A program made the translations under genes and the position numbers. From positions 1 through 25,425 of IMG/VR virus record IMGVR_UViG_3300045912_000040: a stretch of 25,425 nt of DNA; one strand, given 5' to 3'. Source of the DNA: a virus. The notes below the pieces were generated by a model. That model was not told where the DNA came from and made no database searches. It was given only the letters and a program-made list of their open reading frames with translations. Positions 6,491 to 25,338 of this stretch are shown here, piece after piece (the first letter of the stretch is position 1; the number at the start of each line of letters is the position of its first letter).

Positions 6491-7675
6491 CTATGAACGG
6501 TAGATTACAAAAGACTTTTCTTGGTTAGGCCCAACTTTGGCAGTGCCCGTCATGTTCAAAAGAATATCCTGATTGGCTCCAGCACTTGCAGGGTCATCAA
6601 AAGAAACCTGAACCGCTGGCATATAGAACCCATACCAGCCGCCGTTGTTCTTAACCATAAAGCCAACTTGGAAAGGATCTTGGTTTAATTTCTTATCAAG
6701 AATTGACCAGTTGGCATTGTTTAAGTAGGCGTTCATCTCAACCCCGATCTGGGCAGTTCCTGCCGAGTAATCAATCGGAGCAATATCCCCGATGACAGTC
6801 TGCGCTGACAAGTTGTTGTTAAGACTAATTGACAGACTTTGGACTGCAAGGTCAGAAGGGCCGAAAGTTCCAATAGCTGATGTGATAAAGAAAGGCATAT
6901 CGACGGAGCCGTTGAAAGTCTGAGTAGTCGCCGCAGGGTCAATAGTTCTTCCGTTGGTCATAAGCTCTGATGCAGTGTCGGCAGTTACATAGTCATTACC
7001 AGAGAAAGTAAAAGATCCGTTTACAAGTTCTCCAAAGGCAACATTGAGTTCCATCTCAGAAGCAATCATCCCTCGATAGTTAATTCCCTTGGTCGTCAGA
7101 TCAAGAAACTGTTTACACATTGAGAATGATTTTTTAGTAACACCAACTTCAAGTCGGTCAGCACGTTTATAAGCTGTCCCAGATCCTGATTCAGTGACAA
7201 GTGTTCCTACGGATACAACACGAATTACAGTGTTAGATATAATCTCAGCAACCATAACTTGAGTGTTGTTGGCAGCGTTTGAAAACCCAGAAAGAGTCAG
7301 CAAGTCACCAACAACAATCGTCGGAGACCAGTTACCCGCAGAGCGAGTGATCTGACTTGTTGTAGCGTCAATATCTAAATCGACTGTGACTAGAGCCTGG
7401 ATGTTCCAGTCTGAGTACATCGCGGATGCCATGAAATCTTCGAGGGCTTCCTCTTTGGCAAGCTCGAAGCTCAAAGCCCCGCCCACCTGAAGTCCAGTAA
7501 CAATCTGACCGGAACTCATTCGGTCAGTTCTAATTTGCTGAGACTCCACTGTGTCTGGAGTTCCAGACAAGGCCTCAGAAATAAATCTGGCAGTTTTAAA
7601 ATTCCCAGCAACGGGAGTTTGGCCGTAGGCCGTCTCCTCGATGTATGCCACTCTGACGAGATTGGATGAACTCAA
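6491..7675 (-). CDS. Major tail tube protein
   Basis: A 394-residue phage tail tube protein. It starts with LVRVAYIEETAYGQTP, followed by QIRTDRM and GGALSFELAKE, a pattern I recognise from the large siphovirus/HK97-group tube proteins. The C-terminal half has EMNAYLNNANW and VQVSFDDPA. A beta-rich inserted segment lies at about residues 100-170. The protein polymerises into hexameric rings around the tape measure. The start is TTG at 7675: an in-frame TAG lies four codons upstream and the next in-frame ATG is residue 53, so a non-ATG start is forced; an AGGGGG site precedes it. The gene is followed by two stem-loops including a strong terminator, fitting a highly expressed product. Confidence 0.88.
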   Translation of the reverse strand: MSSSNLVRVAYIEETAYGQTPVAGNFKTARFISEALSGTPDTVESQQIRTDRMSSGQIVTGLQVGGALSFELAKEEALEDFMASAMYSDWNIQALVTVDLDIDATTSQITRSAGNWSPTIVVGDLLTLSGFSNAANNTQVMVAEIISNTVIRVVSVGTLVTESGSGTAYKRADRLEVGVTKKSFSMCKQFLDLTTKGINYRGMIASEMELNVAFGELVNGSFTFSGNDYVTADTASELMTNGRTIDPAATTQTFNGSVDMPFFITSAIGTFGPSDLAVQSLSISLNNNLSAQTVIGDIAPIDYSAGTAQIGVEMNAYLNNANWSILDKKLNQDPFQVGFMVKNNGGWYGFYMPAVQVSFDDPASAGANQDILLNMTGTAKVGPNQEKSFVIYRS

Positions 7676-11892: not shown

Positions 11893-12405
11893 TTATGCTC
11901 CTACTGCAAACTGGCCAGAAACTCTCAAGCCACCTGCGATTGATATAAATTCTCTAAAATAATGCTCAAAATCCTGTGCAATGTGAAATGTTTTATCTGA
12001 CAAAATCTTAAATGGGATCACTGCCGATGTCTCTGGTTCAATGCTGCCAAGAATTGTCATTCTGCCATCAACTCGTAACTCACTATTTACCCTAACAAAG
12101 GATGACGCAATCATTTCTTGGCTGGACGGTATTAGTTTAGGTGACAAAACTTCAAAGTGAGAGTAATTATCACCAGGGATTTGCGGGAATGGCGCCTGCT
12201 CTGGAAACTGACACACATAGGCCTCGCCGCTTACCTTAAGGGACCCATCAACTCTGATGGAGTTGCTTACTATCATCTGTTCTTGAGCCGGGATCTCAAT
12301 TTCTAGTCCCGACTGAATTTCTTTGAACGAAAAGTTAGGCGCTGCCCAGACATCTGTCTGGGTTACTCGACCTTGATCTAGTGTCAGCGCCTTTTCAAAA
12401 CTCAT
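11893..12405 (-). CDS. Beta-repeat fibre-associated protein
   Basis: A 170-residue protein with three related internal segments: EQMIVSNSIRVDGSLKVSG (about residues 42-60), QEMIASSFVRVNSELRVDG (about 95-113) and HYFREFISIAGGLRVSG (about 147-163). The alternating pattern suggests stacked beta strands like a short solenoid or fibre shaft. No catalytic motif is seen. Start and stop are tightly coupled to neighbours (TAATG at 12405). Its setting among fibre-like genes makes a virion fibre or adaptor role likely; the repeats are directly visible, the function is inferred. Confidence 0.65.
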   Translation of the reverse strand: MSFEKALTLDQGRVTQTDVWAAPNFSFKEIQSGLEIEIPAQEQMIVSNSIRVDGSLKVSGEAYVCQFPEQAPFPQIPGDNYSHFEVLSPKLIPSSQEMIASSFVRVNSELRVDGRMTILGSIEPETSAVIPFKILSDKTFHIAQDFEHYFREFISIAGGLRVSGQFAVGA

Positions 12406-21493: not shown

Positions 21494-21831
21494 TTATATG
21501 TCCCGGTCGATTCCACAAATGCAATAGCGTCTAAAAGAATATTGTTCCTATGCGCTTGTCCGGAAGGATTACACCTGTAAGTTTCCATAAAGCTTTCTTG
21601 CGTAGAGTGGTCTGTGAGCCAATATCCATTTGGTTTGCCAGTAGGACTTGAGAACCACTTCTGAAGAAAAGAAAGAAGATGGTCTTCTTCTTCCTTACTT
21701 ATTAAGCCCTTTTTTACTAAGGTGTCAGAAGAGAAATGGCACAGCCCAAAGCCTATTATGCCCCCATAAGTAAATTTGGATCTAACTTCTAAAGTCATCC
21801 ACATAATTTCAACCAGTCTATCGGCAGTCAT
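21490..21831 (-). CDS. Hypothetical protein between helicase and TerS
   Basis: A 113-residue protein that I do not recognise. It has an amphipathic N-terminus (RLVEIMWMTLEVRSK), a Gly-rich YGGIIGFGLCHFSSD, a charged helix ISKEEEDHLLSFLQKWF, and a polar C-terminal half with YWLTDHSTQES and RCNPSGQAHRN. It carries two Cys and several His, but these are not spaced like a common zinc finger. It is translationally coupled on both sides by ATGA overlaps, to the helicase upstream and TerS downstream. Coupling suggests a packaging- or replication-linked role, but this is inference. Confidence 0.75.
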   Translation of the reverse strand: MTADRLVEIMWMTLEVRSKFTYGGIIGFGLCHFSSDTLVKKGLISKEEEDHLLSFLQKWFSSPTGKPNGYWLTDHSTQESFMETYRCNPSGQAHRNNILLDAIAFVESTGTYK

Positions 21832-23438
21832 AATAAATCCCCTTCATCTTGCTCGATAGTCATTACTTTTTTATTCTGAGATGGACTATCGGGTTTTTTG
21901 GTTTTGGTCTTTTTTATCCCCAGCTTCTCTAAATCTAAAGTCCTAACATACTCGACGAATTTCATATTGGGCTGGATAAATACATCTTTAGTTTTATCAT
22001 CCTCCGAATATACGGCAGTGCCTAGCTTATACTTATTCATAAAGTAAAAAGACTCTAAGAAATTAGTTACTGACTTTCTTTGAACTCCCTTGAGCCCTGA
22101 CCTAACCGCCGCAGATAGTTTAAAAGGGTCCCCGTCGCCTTTGTACCCAATGACCAAATAATCAAATATCTCTCTTTTCCAGTTAGAAAGTGAATCAAGG
22201 GTAATTTTATAGAAATACTCTTCCTTGTAAGGCATAGTGCGGGAGTATTTAGGAGTCCTGTTTATAATGTAATGTCCGAATCTGGCGACTATATCCTTGT
22301 AGTCCCCTCTTAGGTGTAAAAATCCCTTCGCTATGTCGTCCATTTCTTCCTCGCTCATAGCCTCTCTGAGGGGCGTCTCCGTTATTTCTACAACACTATA
22401 TCTTCGGTCGTCCGGCTCTATTCCTAGTAGATCGGTATCATTGCAGGTTATGGCAAGACTTGCGGAGTTTACCTTTGTTTTTGCATCTTGGCCCTTGCCT
22501 TCGATAGACACCAAGGGGTTAAGAATCCTTTTTAGTTTATTTTTAGCCTCAAGAGTAATTAAGGAAACTTCGTCAGCATGGAGAAGTCTTTTTTGGTACA
22601 TATTTCCAGTAAACTTGTCTTCAAAGAAAGCCTGGGTCACTTTCTCTACTTGTTCCGGCCCAATTAAGGCAGAAACCAAACTTAAAAATATGTCTTTCCC
22701 GATCCCCCTTTTACCCGTCAATACCAATGCGGTGTCCGCACGGTCTGTAATTGCCCAGTAAAGCCAATCTAAAACAAACTCACGGGCCTTAGTCAGAGGG
22801 AAAAGGTGTTTTAGGAATCTATCAATTTTTGGGTGTATTTCAGGACTAACGTCCATTTTAAGCCAATACGGCCTCGGGCAAAGATTTATACAGGTTAACA
22901 TCTGCCCCGCATATTCCGCCTTATACATAAAGTCGGTGTTCTTAAACTCATACACAAATCTAATATGATATTTAGGGTTGGCCGCAATATCTTCTGGCCT
23001 TAGCCCCATAGAAAGCAGATATGACCTCGGGTGTATTTCAGTAAGGATCTGCTCGTTTTTCTCATCTATCATGTAAATAGCATCCACAAGCGAGGATGCC
23101 CTGGAGCCAACATCATAATAAGGCGTTACTTTGGAATAAAGCTCTGAGAAGTCCTGGCCAGTTGTAGAAGACTCTGGGGCTTTCTTATCGCTTACCGCTG
23201 CAACCTCTTTTAGAAGCGGGTACAGCAAGGAATATTTCTTATCCATCCTAATAGTGGCCAGCTTAAATTTTATGTCAGATGGTATAGAGTCAGGATATTC
23301 TTGGGCCAAAAGAGCCTTTAGTAATTTCTCCGGGCTGGGATACGAGGTGCCTTCAGTATGATATCTTTTACCATCAAATCCCCGATATCCTAAAGATTCT
23401 AGGGCATTTAAAAACAGCTCTTTCTCTTTTTCCGACAT
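21828..23438 (-). CDS. SF3/D5-like replicative helicase (primase-helicase C-terminal type)
   Basis: A 536-residue protein. The N-terminal ~200 residues may be a primase-associated or loading region. The ATPase has Walker A TGKRGIGKD (242-249), Walker B LLHADEVSL (Asp289-Glu290), motif C SASLAITCNDTDLLGIEPDDRRYS (sensor Asn333, Arg345-346) and a winged C-terminal region, matching SF3/D5 helicases like the DUF5906 group. No primase catalytic domain is evident, so priming may be by another gene. I chose the ATG at 23438 because a GGAG site lies 6 nt upstream, over a TTG two codons earlier inside that spacing. It would unwind phage DNA at an origin. It stops in an ATGA overlap with the next gene. 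Confidence 0.9.
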   Translation of the reverse strand: MSEKEKELFLNALESLGYRGFDGKRYHTEGTSYPSPEKLLKALLAQEYPDSIPSDIKFKLATIRMDKKYSLLYPLLKEVAAVSDKKAPESSTTGQDFSELYSKVTPYYDVGSRASSLVDAIYMIDEKNEQILTEIHPRSYLLSMGLRPEDIAANPKYHIRFVYEFKNTDFMYKAEYAGQMLTCINLCPRPYWLKMDVSPEIHPKIDRFLKHLFPLTKAREFVLDWLYWAITDRADTALVLTGKRGIGKDIFLSLVSALIGPEQVEKVTQAFFEDKFTGNMYQKRLLHADEVSLITLEAKNKLKRILNPLVSIEGKGQDAKTKVNSASLAITCNDTDLLGIEPDDRRYSVVEITETPLREAMSEEEMDDIAKGFLHLRGDYKDIVARFGHYIINRTPKYSRTMPYKEEYFYKITLDSLSNWKREIFDYLVIGYKGDGDPFKLSAAVRSGLKGVQRKSVTNFLESFYFMNKYKLGTAVYSEDDKTKDVFIQPNMKFVEYVRTLDLEKLGIKKTKTKKPDSPSQNKKVMTIEQDEGDLL

Positions 23439-23494: not shown

Positions 23495-23522
23495 TTGTCA
23501 ACTCTCGGCAATATGTTATTAT
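23495..23522 (+). promoter_or_regulatory. Candidate sigma70-type promoter on the plus strand
   Basis: TTGTCA (23495-23500) and TATTAT (23517-23522) are separated by 16 nt, each one mismatch from the -35/-10 consensus. Transcription would begin near 23529, run away from the helicase gene, and meet a strong hairpin terminator 40 nt later. The coupling of both signals on the strand without genes is what makes the promoter credible; the match alone would be weak. Confidence 0.4.
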
Positions 23523-23528
23523 TATTAA

Positions 23529-23604
23529 GTCTCTTAATCTTCTCGCGGAGATTTAGAACTTGGGGTAGTCCCTCAAAGGCCCAAACTTTTGAGGGACTTT
23601 TTTC
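23529..23604 (+). ncRNA. Candidate ~75-nt plus-strand small RNA
   Basis: A short transcript is implied between the plus-strand promoter at 23495-23522 and the intrinsic terminator at 23567-23604, antisense in direction to the phage's genes but not complementary to any coding sequence. It could fold a small stem around TCTC-GCG-GAGA (about 23540-23552) before the terminator stem. No ORF with a ribosome site is visible. It could be a regulatory RNA, an antisense control of the helicase leader, or a transcriptional by-product. No known RNA family is recognised. Confidence 0.35.
23567..23604 (+). terminator. Intrinsic terminator on the plus strand
   Basis: Perfect 11-bp stem AGTCCCTCAAA (23567-23577) and TTTGAGGGACT (23588-23598), 10-nt loop, followed on the plus strand by five more T. 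On the minus strand the stem is not followed by a U-tract, so it is directional. No protein gene in the window ends here. Confidence 0.75.
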
Positions 23605-23606
23605 AC

Positions 23607-23622
23607 TAGAGTAAGTACTCTA
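23607..23622. repeat. 16-bp palindrome, possible operator
   Basis: TAGAGTA (23607-23613), two bases, then TACTCTA (23616-23622): a perfect inverted repeat too tight to be a good hairpin and so more like a dimeric protein-binding site. It lies 3 nt after the plus-strand terminator and upstream of the helicase gene on the minus strand. The regulator is unknown. Confidence 0.4.
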
Positions 23623-23724
23623 AAGTTGAAAAAGAAAAAAATGGCCTTTTTTTAGGTTATTCCCCAATAAAATCATAGAGTTAGGCCGATTTTTGCATTT
23701 CTATTTCTTTTTCTCGGCCCGGCC

Positions 23725-23758
23725 AAAAAAAAAAAATAAAAAATTTTTTTTATAAAAA
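23725..23758. other. A/T-run element, possible DNA-unwinding site
   Basis: Twelve A, one T, six A, eight T, then ATA and more A, with no G or C for over 30 bp. It directly follows a GC-rich GGCCCGGCC block. Such asymmetric A/T runs bend and melt easily and are found at origins. It is ~300 bp upstream of the helicase start. Origin function is inferred from base composition and neighbours only. Confidence 0.35.
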
Positions 23759-23902
23759 TGGGAAATATACTAATATACCTAGGTTTTTAAAATTCCTTAA
23801 TGATTTCGTGTATTTACAGCGAAAATTTGCTGATCCGTTAATAGTGAGTGATTTCAATAACTTACGAAGGCATTTTTTTGACCCCCTAAAATTAGCCCTA
23901 AT

Positions 23903-23917
23903 TGAGAATAATTATCA
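23903..23917. promoter_or_regulatory. Fur-like palindromic operator, copy 1
   Basis: TGAGAATAATTATCA matches the Fur 7-1-7 consensus TGATAATnATTATCA at 13 of 14 scored positions. Flanking AAT extends the dyad. It is 23 bp centre-to-centre from copy 2 and lies downstream of the metallopeptidase stop, upstream of the helicase on the minus strand. Either host Fur or a phage repressor with a similar site may bind. Confidence 0.55.
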
Positions 23918-23925
23918 ACTGTAAT

Positions 23926-23940
23926 TGAGAACAAATATCA
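23926..23940. promoter_or_regulatory. Fur-like palindromic operator, copy 2
   Basis: TGAGAACAAATATCA, 11 of 14 matches to the Fur 7-1-7 consensus, again preceded by AAT and followed by ATT. It is a weaker half of a tandem pair with copy 1, spaced about two helical turns, as is usual for cooperative sites. Confidence 0.45.
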
Positions 23941-23956
23941 ATTAGAAACCTAGTTT

Positions 23957-24256
23957 TTAAAACAGTTTTTTCAGTATTTTTCGATTTTCGGTCAAAATTT
24001 TTGCAAGTTGGTCGATCATAACTTCTTCCAACTCATGTGGAAGGCCGCTTTGTTTGTAGCTGCATCTTTCAAAAGAACTGTGGAAAATTTCATGGCAAAG
24101 AGTCTCTAACCAAAGGTTAGAACCCACAGGAATGTCCTGATTTATGACTATCCGCATCTTTCCGTATTCGCATAGGCCTGCTTCATTTGGCGAGAGTTTG
24201 CCAGTTACGACCTGCCATTTCTGGCCGAAAATGTCGAGTTTTGCCACTTTTTTCAT
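23957..24256 (-). CDS. Small HExxH zinc metallopeptidase
   Basis: A 99-residue protein with a zinc-metallopeptidase signature: LWLETLCHEIFHSSF (His55, Glu56, His59) and a later acidic HELEEVMIDQLAKIL, whose Glu77 or Glu78 could be the third ligand. It resembles the small ImmA/SprT-like gluzincins often found in phage early regions. No HTH domain is attached. ImmA-type enzymes cleave repressors, but no repressor is visible here. The ATG at 24256 lacks its own good ribosome site; it overlaps the TGA of a short upstream frame as ATGA, which suggests coupled translation. Confidence 0.8.
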   Translation of the reverse strand: MKKVAKLDIFGQKWQVVTGKLSPNEAGLCEYGKMRIVINQDIPVGSNLWLETLCHEIFHSSFERCSYKQSGLPHELEEVMIDQLAKILTENRKILKKLF

Positions 24257-24336
24257 AAAGGACAGCCCATGGGCCGAATCACCCGGTAAAGGATTGGGAG
24301 TGCGAGGGCCCAGGACTGTGTTTTAATAATCGTCAC
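24253..24336 (-). CDS. Possible 27-residue leader ORF coupled to the metallopeptidase
   Basis: GTG at 24336 follows a perfect AAGGAGG site at 6-nt spacing, and the frame closes with TGA at 24255-24253, overlapping the metallopeptidase ATG as ATGA. The peptide starts MTIIKTQSWALALP and ends RPMGCPL. Because the metallopeptidase has no ribosome site of its own, this frame may exist mainly to load ribosomes. Part of it lies in a GC-rich block that may be a repeat element, so a coding role for the peptide itself is uncertain. Confidence 0.5.
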   Translation of the reverse strand: MTIIKTQSWALALPILYRVIRPMGCPL

Positions 24337-24353
24337 AAGAAGCCTCCTTAAAA

Positions 24354-25130
24354 TCAACAAGGTCTTACAAATTTATCCCTTAGGGCGAGTTTGCAAGAGG
24401 ACCCGCAATCCGTACACAAAAGCCGCTGATAGCGTTGCGTGGTCGTAGTTCTCATTCCATTTTTTATGAGAGACAGAGATCCACAAGTAGGGCACCTTGT
24501 TCCCTCCAAAGACCATAAGTTATGATTTGGCATATTCTTAACAAAAGGTCTAAGTTTTAAAAATACCTGCTCAAGGGTTTTTACGTCCTGCTTACAATAC
24601 TTTTCCATAGCGGATAAAGACCTCTCACAGCCAAGCCATATCTTTTCCCAAAGCTCCCAGCCGCCATTTTCCATCTTCTTTTCGGATGCAGTCAGTTCCG
24701 CCAAATCATTTAGCCTATTTCCAATTGTAAATAGATTGCCTTTGGCAAGTGCTTTTGTGTCCATGTGGGGAATAGTGGGGAGTGTTTCTAGTCCGTGAAA
24801 CAAAAGCCTTGTCTGGATAAATTTCCAGTCAAATTTTTTCCCATTCTGGGTTACCACTCCGTCTGCCGCTTTAATAATTTTAAGAAATTCTTGTAGGACA
24901 TATCTGTCGTCGTTTTTATCTGTTTTCCAATTCGGCCCGTCCCAAGCCCGAATCATGTTCACTTTCTTTTTGCCCAGTTCTTTCCAGCCAATACAAAGAA
25001 CTGAATTTATCGTGGCCTTCAAAGAACTTCCTGGCCAGTCGTCTATGCGCGGAAGGTATTTCAAAACTTGTCTTAAGTTAGGCAAAGTCTCTATATCAAA
25101 TACAATAATTCGAGGCTTCCCCAACTCCAT
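24354..25130 (-). CDS. DEDDy 3'-5' exonuclease (RNase H-like) with C-terminal zinc ribbon
   Basis: A 258-residue protein. Exo I is VFDIETLP (Asp12, Glu14), Exo II is QNGKKFDWKF (Asp101), and Exo III is YCKQDVKTLEQVF (Tyr178-x3-Asp182), the DEDDy form seen in DnaQ/YprB-like and family B polymerase proofreading domains. The tail has two CxxC pairs, CPTC (213-216) and CTDC (239-242), a zinc ribbon likely to bind nucleic acid. I chose the ATG at 25130, preceded by GGGGGG at good spacing, over a TTG at 25166. No polymerase domain is attached. Possible roles are replication repair or host DNA/RNA processing. It is the first gene after the right-hand Fur-like site. Confidence 0.87.
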   Translation of the reverse strand: MELGKPRIIVFDIETLPNLRQVLKYLPRIDDWPGSSLKATINSVLCIGWKELGKKKVNMIRAWDGPNWKTDKNDDRYVLQEFLKIIKAADGVVTQNGKKFDWKFIQTRLLFHGLETLPTIPHMDTKALAKGNLFTIGNRLNDLAELTASEKKMENGGWELWEKIWLGCERSLSAMEKYCKQDVKTLEQVFLKLRPFVKNMPNHNLWSLEGTRCPTCGSLSLIKNGMRTTTTQRYQRLLCTDCGSSCKLALRDKFVRPC

Positions 25131-25213
25131 AATACCCCCCGAACAAATTTCAGCATCTTTCCCCAACTTATTTAAGATAATTTAAGATTCTGGACTTAAT
25201 TCTGAAACTTAAT

Positions 25214-25228
25214 TGAAAATGATTCTCA
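25214..25228. promoter_or_regulatory. Fur-like palindromic operator, copy 3
   Basis: TGAAAATGATTCTCA, 12 of 14 matches to the Fur 7-1-7 consensus, flanked by AAT and ATT so that the dyad extends further (TTGAAAATGATTCTCAA). It lies ~85 bp upstream of the exonuclease start in the minus direction, where an operator would be expected. Confidence 0.55.
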
Positions 25229-25338
25229 ATTTCTAAAATGAATAATAAGCCAGTTTATATTCATCCCGCGCATATTTCAATTAGAGGTCTAGTAGAGTCG
25301 GTGTATTCGTTTTTAAATCTAATATAAGGGGTCCCTAT

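Follow-up and report, generated by a model that had tools for sequence, protein, structure and literature searches.

The window analysed here is a 25,425-base IMG/VR virus contig that lacks end repeats and is probably a fragment of a phage genome. All of its clear genes are oriented leftward; they encode an exonuclease, a 99-aa HExxH protein, a DUF5906 primase/helicase-like protein, the terminase subunits, a protease, and capsid, portal and tail proteins. The DUF5906 gene heads the leftward run that continues into terS, terL and the protease and capsid genes, and the exonuclease gene has an alternative, longer ORF starting at TTG 25166. At the right contig end (25390-25425), an inverted repeat CGCATACTTAG...CTAAGTATGCG could form a hairpin or terminator.

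Three dyads of 17 bp each, related to one another, are located in intergenic DNA between gene-sized ORFs (Table 1). Dyads 1 and 2 are arranged in tandem with a spacing of 23 bp and are flanked by the HExxH and DUF5906 genes, dyad 2 lying 15 bp from the stop codon of the small ORF. Dyad 3 precedes the likely ATG of the exonuclease gene by 82 bp and is 47 bp from the alternative TTG. As a cluster of sites for a host regulator this arrangement is weak, consisting of two adjacent dyads and a third one 1.3 kb away; clustering is strong in the other phages described below. The idea that the two intergenic regions are duplicates of one another was discarded, their local alignment being no better than that of shuffles.

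Table 1. Features of the dyad region, in window coordinates.
Feature	Position	Strand	Remarks
DUF5906 / primase-helicase-like gene	21828..23438	-	phrog_1156 and PF19263; ATG 23438 likely, read from sequence
A/T-run tract	23725..23757	.	from sequence; between tandem dyads and helicase gene
Dyad 1, TTGAGAATAATTATCAA	23902..23918	.	Fur 7-1-7 match 13/14
Dyad 2, TTGAGAACAAATATCAA	23925..23941	.	Fur 7-1-7 match 11/14
99-aa protein, phrog_1233	23957..24256	-	HEIFH (HExxH) motif read from sequence
DNA polymerase exonuclease-subunit-like gene	24354..25131	-	phrog_403, E=4e-52; ATG 25131 likely, from sequence
Dyad 3, TTGAAAATGATTCTCAA	25213..25229	.	Fur 7-1-7 match 12/14; upstream of exonuclease gene
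Weak promoter-like site TTGAAA-17-TAAACT	25252..25280	-	9/12; just upstream of dyad 3

The initial annotation had described three related dyads resembling the Fur 7-1-7 box at 11-13 of 14 positions, and our count confirmed it. Scored against the consensus TGATAATNATTATCA, dyads 1, 2 and 3 carry 1, 3 and 2 mismatches, respectively, and all three lie at or above the level of approximately 11 of 14 matches taken to define a Fur box. Dyad 1 is the only window member of the exact TGAKAATNATTMTCA class, dyad 3 is one position off that class and dyad 2 is a degenerate copy. The accompanying statement that the dyads occur nowhere else was nearly right, since just two extra matches appeared, both inside ORFs: a match to the merged dyad with 3 mismatches at 7120 and a 12/14 match to the Fur consensus at 12158. 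Both are probably due to chance.

Chance could in principle account for the intergenic dyads as well, if AT-rich promoter-like words happened to form similar palindromes. In favour of this, two of the three sites are imperfect, the coding DNA at 12158 also holds a 12/14 match, and the feature was picked out post hoc. Against this, we applied a consensus-free criterion for a pair of dyads, in which each 17-mer had to be palindromic at seven or more of 8 positions and the two could differ by at most one mismatch. One such pair occurs in the window and none in 400 windows simulated with an order-3 Markov model. None of 100 shuffles attained 4 matches, albeit with a consensus derived from the window itself. 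Exact TGAKAATNATTMTCA-class dyads were absent from 678 kb of phage DNA, composed of loci fetched for their genes without regard to dyads, where permuted dyads led us to expect 0.015; at the permuted-dyad rate, about 0.0006 exact dyads are expected per 25 kb. The dyads exceed chance, and coincidence appears a highly improbable explanation.

It had further been proposed that the dyads are the control points of both early transcripts, a claim that our data do not uphold. No strong sigma70-like promoter overlaps the window dyads, and the only candidates are weak promoter-like sites present at chance rate (10 found versus 9.9 expected). The tandem pair is indeed upstream of the helicase gene, as the initial annotation indicated, but it is not close to it, being located behind the stop of the small ORF and about 460 bp from the likely helicase ATG, with the AT tract and an sRNA-like element in between. 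Dyads are also missing from all related phages tested. Moreover, the label of 'early transcript' is not established, since from the helicase ORF through terS and terL each gene overlaps or directly adjoins the next. The sole good promoter-like site of the dyad region (23495-23522) points in the opposite direction and leads into the sRNA-like element.

That element (23495-23604, plus strand) comprises an extended -10 sigma70-like promoter, TTGTCA-16-TATTAT (10/12), followed by an RNA of approximately 75 nt with two hairpins (fold z = -4.06) that ends in a 13-bp terminator stem and a T run. It would lie antisense to the leader of the DUF5906 gene and is possibly a small or antisense RNA of the phage; a search of Rfam with the element gave no match. 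Just beyond its terminator, at 23605-23625, there is a perfect 7-2-7 inverted repeat, TAGAGTA-AG-TACTCTA.

Relatives of the window's phage were found by protein searches with the exonuclease, the capsid and the terminase, while the helicase protein search found none. At two or fewer mismatches the dyads occur in 0 of the 12 related records tested, which have capsid or exonuclease genes in common with the window and protein identities of about 41-63%. Conservation within the family was thus not observed, a result that the initial annotation had listed as counting against its own proposal; no relative above about 63% capsid identity spans the dyad region, and three contigs in which a capsid segment is 100% identical (L012, L016 and L052) stop short of it. 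The comparable stretches of the relatives contain no similar repeated dyad pair of their own. One relative (L008) has, at 2081-2099, a single 19-bp perfect palindrome, TACACTTAAATTAAGTGTA, placed 9 bp before its exonuclease match, and a second copy is absent from the L008 locus. An attempt to identify the host through capsid relatives in bacterial genomes was abandoned, since the best hit, at 54%, was to a contig from a Clostridia MAG that is too remote to be used and may itself derive from a stray phage.

The absence of the dyads from relatives is what would be expected of fast-evolving operators, and the dyads could, as the initial annotation also suggested for a phage repressor, be operators bound by a repressor or Cro-like protein of the phage itself. 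In phage lambda, OR and OL are built of 17-bp odd dyads spaced 23-24 bp apart and bound by a phage repressor encoded alongside. The window shows the same kind of geometry (several similar dyads of 15-17 bp about 23 bp apart), with 17-bp odd dyads, a tandem spacing of 23 bp and two possible control positions, and its dyads are near-unique within it. The likeness extends to dyad size and spacing but not to a cognate repressor gene, none being seen among the scanned ORFs adjoining the dyads, a set that covered part of the small ORFs. Given that the window is a fragment, such a gene could fall outside it. The relatives' lack of dyad pairs in comparable regions counts against a phage operator, which would also leave unexplained the coincidence with a dyad that recurs in many unrelated phages. 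With two of the three sites imperfect, this is a serious rival for the window, even if we consider it on the whole unlikely.

The recurrence of the dyad was apparent in IMG/VR. A tandem pattern derived from the window matched 4 records and a slightly wider one 8, whereas a scrambled tandem built like the wider pattern matched none; a search for two perfect Fur-type dyads in tandem matched at least 120 stretches of IMG/VR. The dyad cluster was non-coding, that is, covered by no ORF longer than 150 aa, in all 82 loci examined, which represent about 57 distinct loci once near-duplicates are dropped. Removal of near-identical copies retained 50 of the 75 new loci, and we surveyed the 100 longest ORFs within 3.5 kb of these 50 clusters. 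The commonest families were terminase large subunit, portal, Gp88-like and primase/helicase proteins, indicating that the cluster-bearing loci are phage backbones, and iron-uptake families were absent from the 25 commonest Pfam families (of 38). A sigma70-like promoter of at least 10/12 overlaps 3 of the 50 clusters and is found within 300 bp of 22. The majority of cluster-bearing phages have no detectable protein in common with the window's phage. As the cohort was gathered by a Fur-pattern search, it shows that such phages exist, not that the window functions alike.

Among 65 cluster spacings none fell at 19-22 bp, and the 23 bp found in the window is both the minimum in the scanned range and the joint commonest value. 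Helical phasing of the spacings was considered and dismissed as not significant (R=0.19, Monte Carlo p=0.23). The central base of the dyad is C or G in 92% of the cohort, and dyad 1 of the window has the rare A. In two related phages (L076/L094 and L080/L095), whose terminases are 73% identical, tandem Fur-type dyads are located upstream of the terminase genes in a non-coding region of more than 1 kb, spacing and flanks differing between the two. A 97-kb virus contig (L082) carries eight Fur-type dyads at 6650-6935 with a regular period of about 38 bp.

The cohort also bears on whether the tandem dyads and the AT tract form part of a replication origin, the dyads being iteron-like sites for the DUF5906 protein or another initiator. 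The A/T-run tract lies near both the tandem dyads and the replication gene, and one phage (L077) has a similar tract with tandem dyads upstream of its helicase gene. An origin of the iteron type would call for at least three direct repeats adjoining AT-rich DNA; the window has the tract and just two tandem copies, the third being 1.3 kb off beyond two genes, and most cohort clusters have terminase and portal genes, not replication genes, as their neighbours. An origin function appears very doubtful.

Fur-type boxes were also found in cultured phages. A synthetic tandem enterobacterial Fur box matched 779 records at E<=10, of which the stricter limit of E<=0.3 left 462, among them T5-like phages, Justusliebigvirus and RaK2. 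Many of these 462 are close relatives of each other, with far fewer independent origins. One scrambled control matched 3 records at E<=10 and a second none at E<=0.3. The T5-like phage DT571/2 (L228, KM979355.1) contains dense overlapping Fur-type hexamers at 6970-7590, within a 1.9-kb non-coding stretch near the left end that is annotated as terminal repeat in sister records, while in phage alia four boxes fall within about 90 nt and RaK2 has six boxes spread over 1.4 kb. Read by eye, the arrays of these three phages are convincing. Two or more boxes each were observed in Roseobacter phage CRP-143, Microcystis phage Mic1 and Microbacterium phage Triscuit, of which only the additional boxes count as evidence, these phages having been found via chance-level matches. 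Direct similarity searches with the window's own tandem against cultured phages gave chance-level matches only. A tandem LexA-box query returned 0 phage matches and is not a valid comparison, since its TATATA run was possibly masked by the low-complexity filter.

A site common to unrelated phages whose own regulators differ argues for a host protein as the binder. A Fur encoded by the phage itself was rejected as a candidate, Fur homologues (PF01475) being absent from all 30 records tested, window included, in a search that was positive in 13 of 14 control genomes. The match to the consensus, the rarity of the dyads and their recurrence in unrelated phages all point to Fur, and we infer that it is the likely binder; other members of the family, such as Zur, have related sites. 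Our preferred reading, to which we assign a probability of about 0.58, is that the three dyads are sites for a host Fur-family metalloregulator in phage intergenic DNA. Hence, the earlier suggestion of host Fur binding gains from the presence of the same dyad clusters, and not of their scrambled versions, in intergenic DNA of many phages, and loses the part that made the dyads control points. With two imperfect sites out of three, the window makes a weaker case for Fur than the T5-like phages do. The absence of the dyads from the 12 related phages, the rare central A of dyad 1 and the lack of an overlapping strong promoter likewise count against Fur.

With sufficient iron, Fur dimers carrying metal would be expected on the tandem pair (23902-23941) and on dyad 3 (25213-25229). 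As one outcome, leftward transcription of the exonuclease gene and of the helicase-terminase genes might be repressed or gated by metal. Alternatively, replicating phage genomes might titrate Fur, leading to derepression of host iron uptake. Control of a promoter by sites lying upstream of it and titration of Fur are both possible effects of binding, and both would be compatible with the spacings and the promoter overlap observed. In a broader and more tentative proposal, which we regard as rather improbable, intergenic Fur-box arrays of many unrelated phages would serve as DNA decoys that titrate host Fur, so that iron uptake is derepressed while the infection proceeds. With its three boxes, the phage of the window would then be a minimal example. 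The differences in copy number and spacing, together with the small overlap with promoters, would fit decoys better than promoter control, and such arrays would amount to a naturally occurring counterpart of the Fur titration assay.

For the host, iron status is a central signal, and several phage receptors are siderophore transporters controlled by Fur. Should the arrays bind Fur, several phage lineages would either read the iron state of the host or rewrite it, an idea that the T5-like phages and other cultured phages of E. coli make directly testable. The window dyads resemble the Fur box of host iron promoters (7-1-7, or 19-bp inverted repeat) in sequence, as odd dyads with one central base, and in their intergenic location at adjacent sites. 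Unlike host boxes, these putative sites adjoin replication and packaging genes instead of iron genes and are not overlapped by a strong promoter.

The use of host regulators by phages through clustered sites is already known; Fur-type arrays in backbone DNA, recognised here by their sequence, would be the new part, and no report of them was found in the literature searched, whose coverage mostly excluded subscription journals. A close parallel is that of Alphaproteobacteria phages with clusters of CtrA-binding sites in promoters, for which binding and regulation have been shown (PMC9437464). Like the putative Fur sites presented here, these clusters are intergenic and occur in several unrelated lineages (PMC9437464); regulator and signal are different. 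The same source also summarises the cases of GIL01-type phages, with LexA operators, and of phi29, with Spo0A sites, where a host regulator is co-opted through sites in the phage genome, the signal being DNA damage or sporulation and promoter control having been demonstrated (PMC9437464). A Fur box has been reported upstream of sitABCD in lambdoid coliphages (PMC6969025). That box belongs to a cargo operon encoding an iron/manganese transporter (PMC6969025), whereas the candidate sites of the window are located in the phage backbone, apart from any iron gene.
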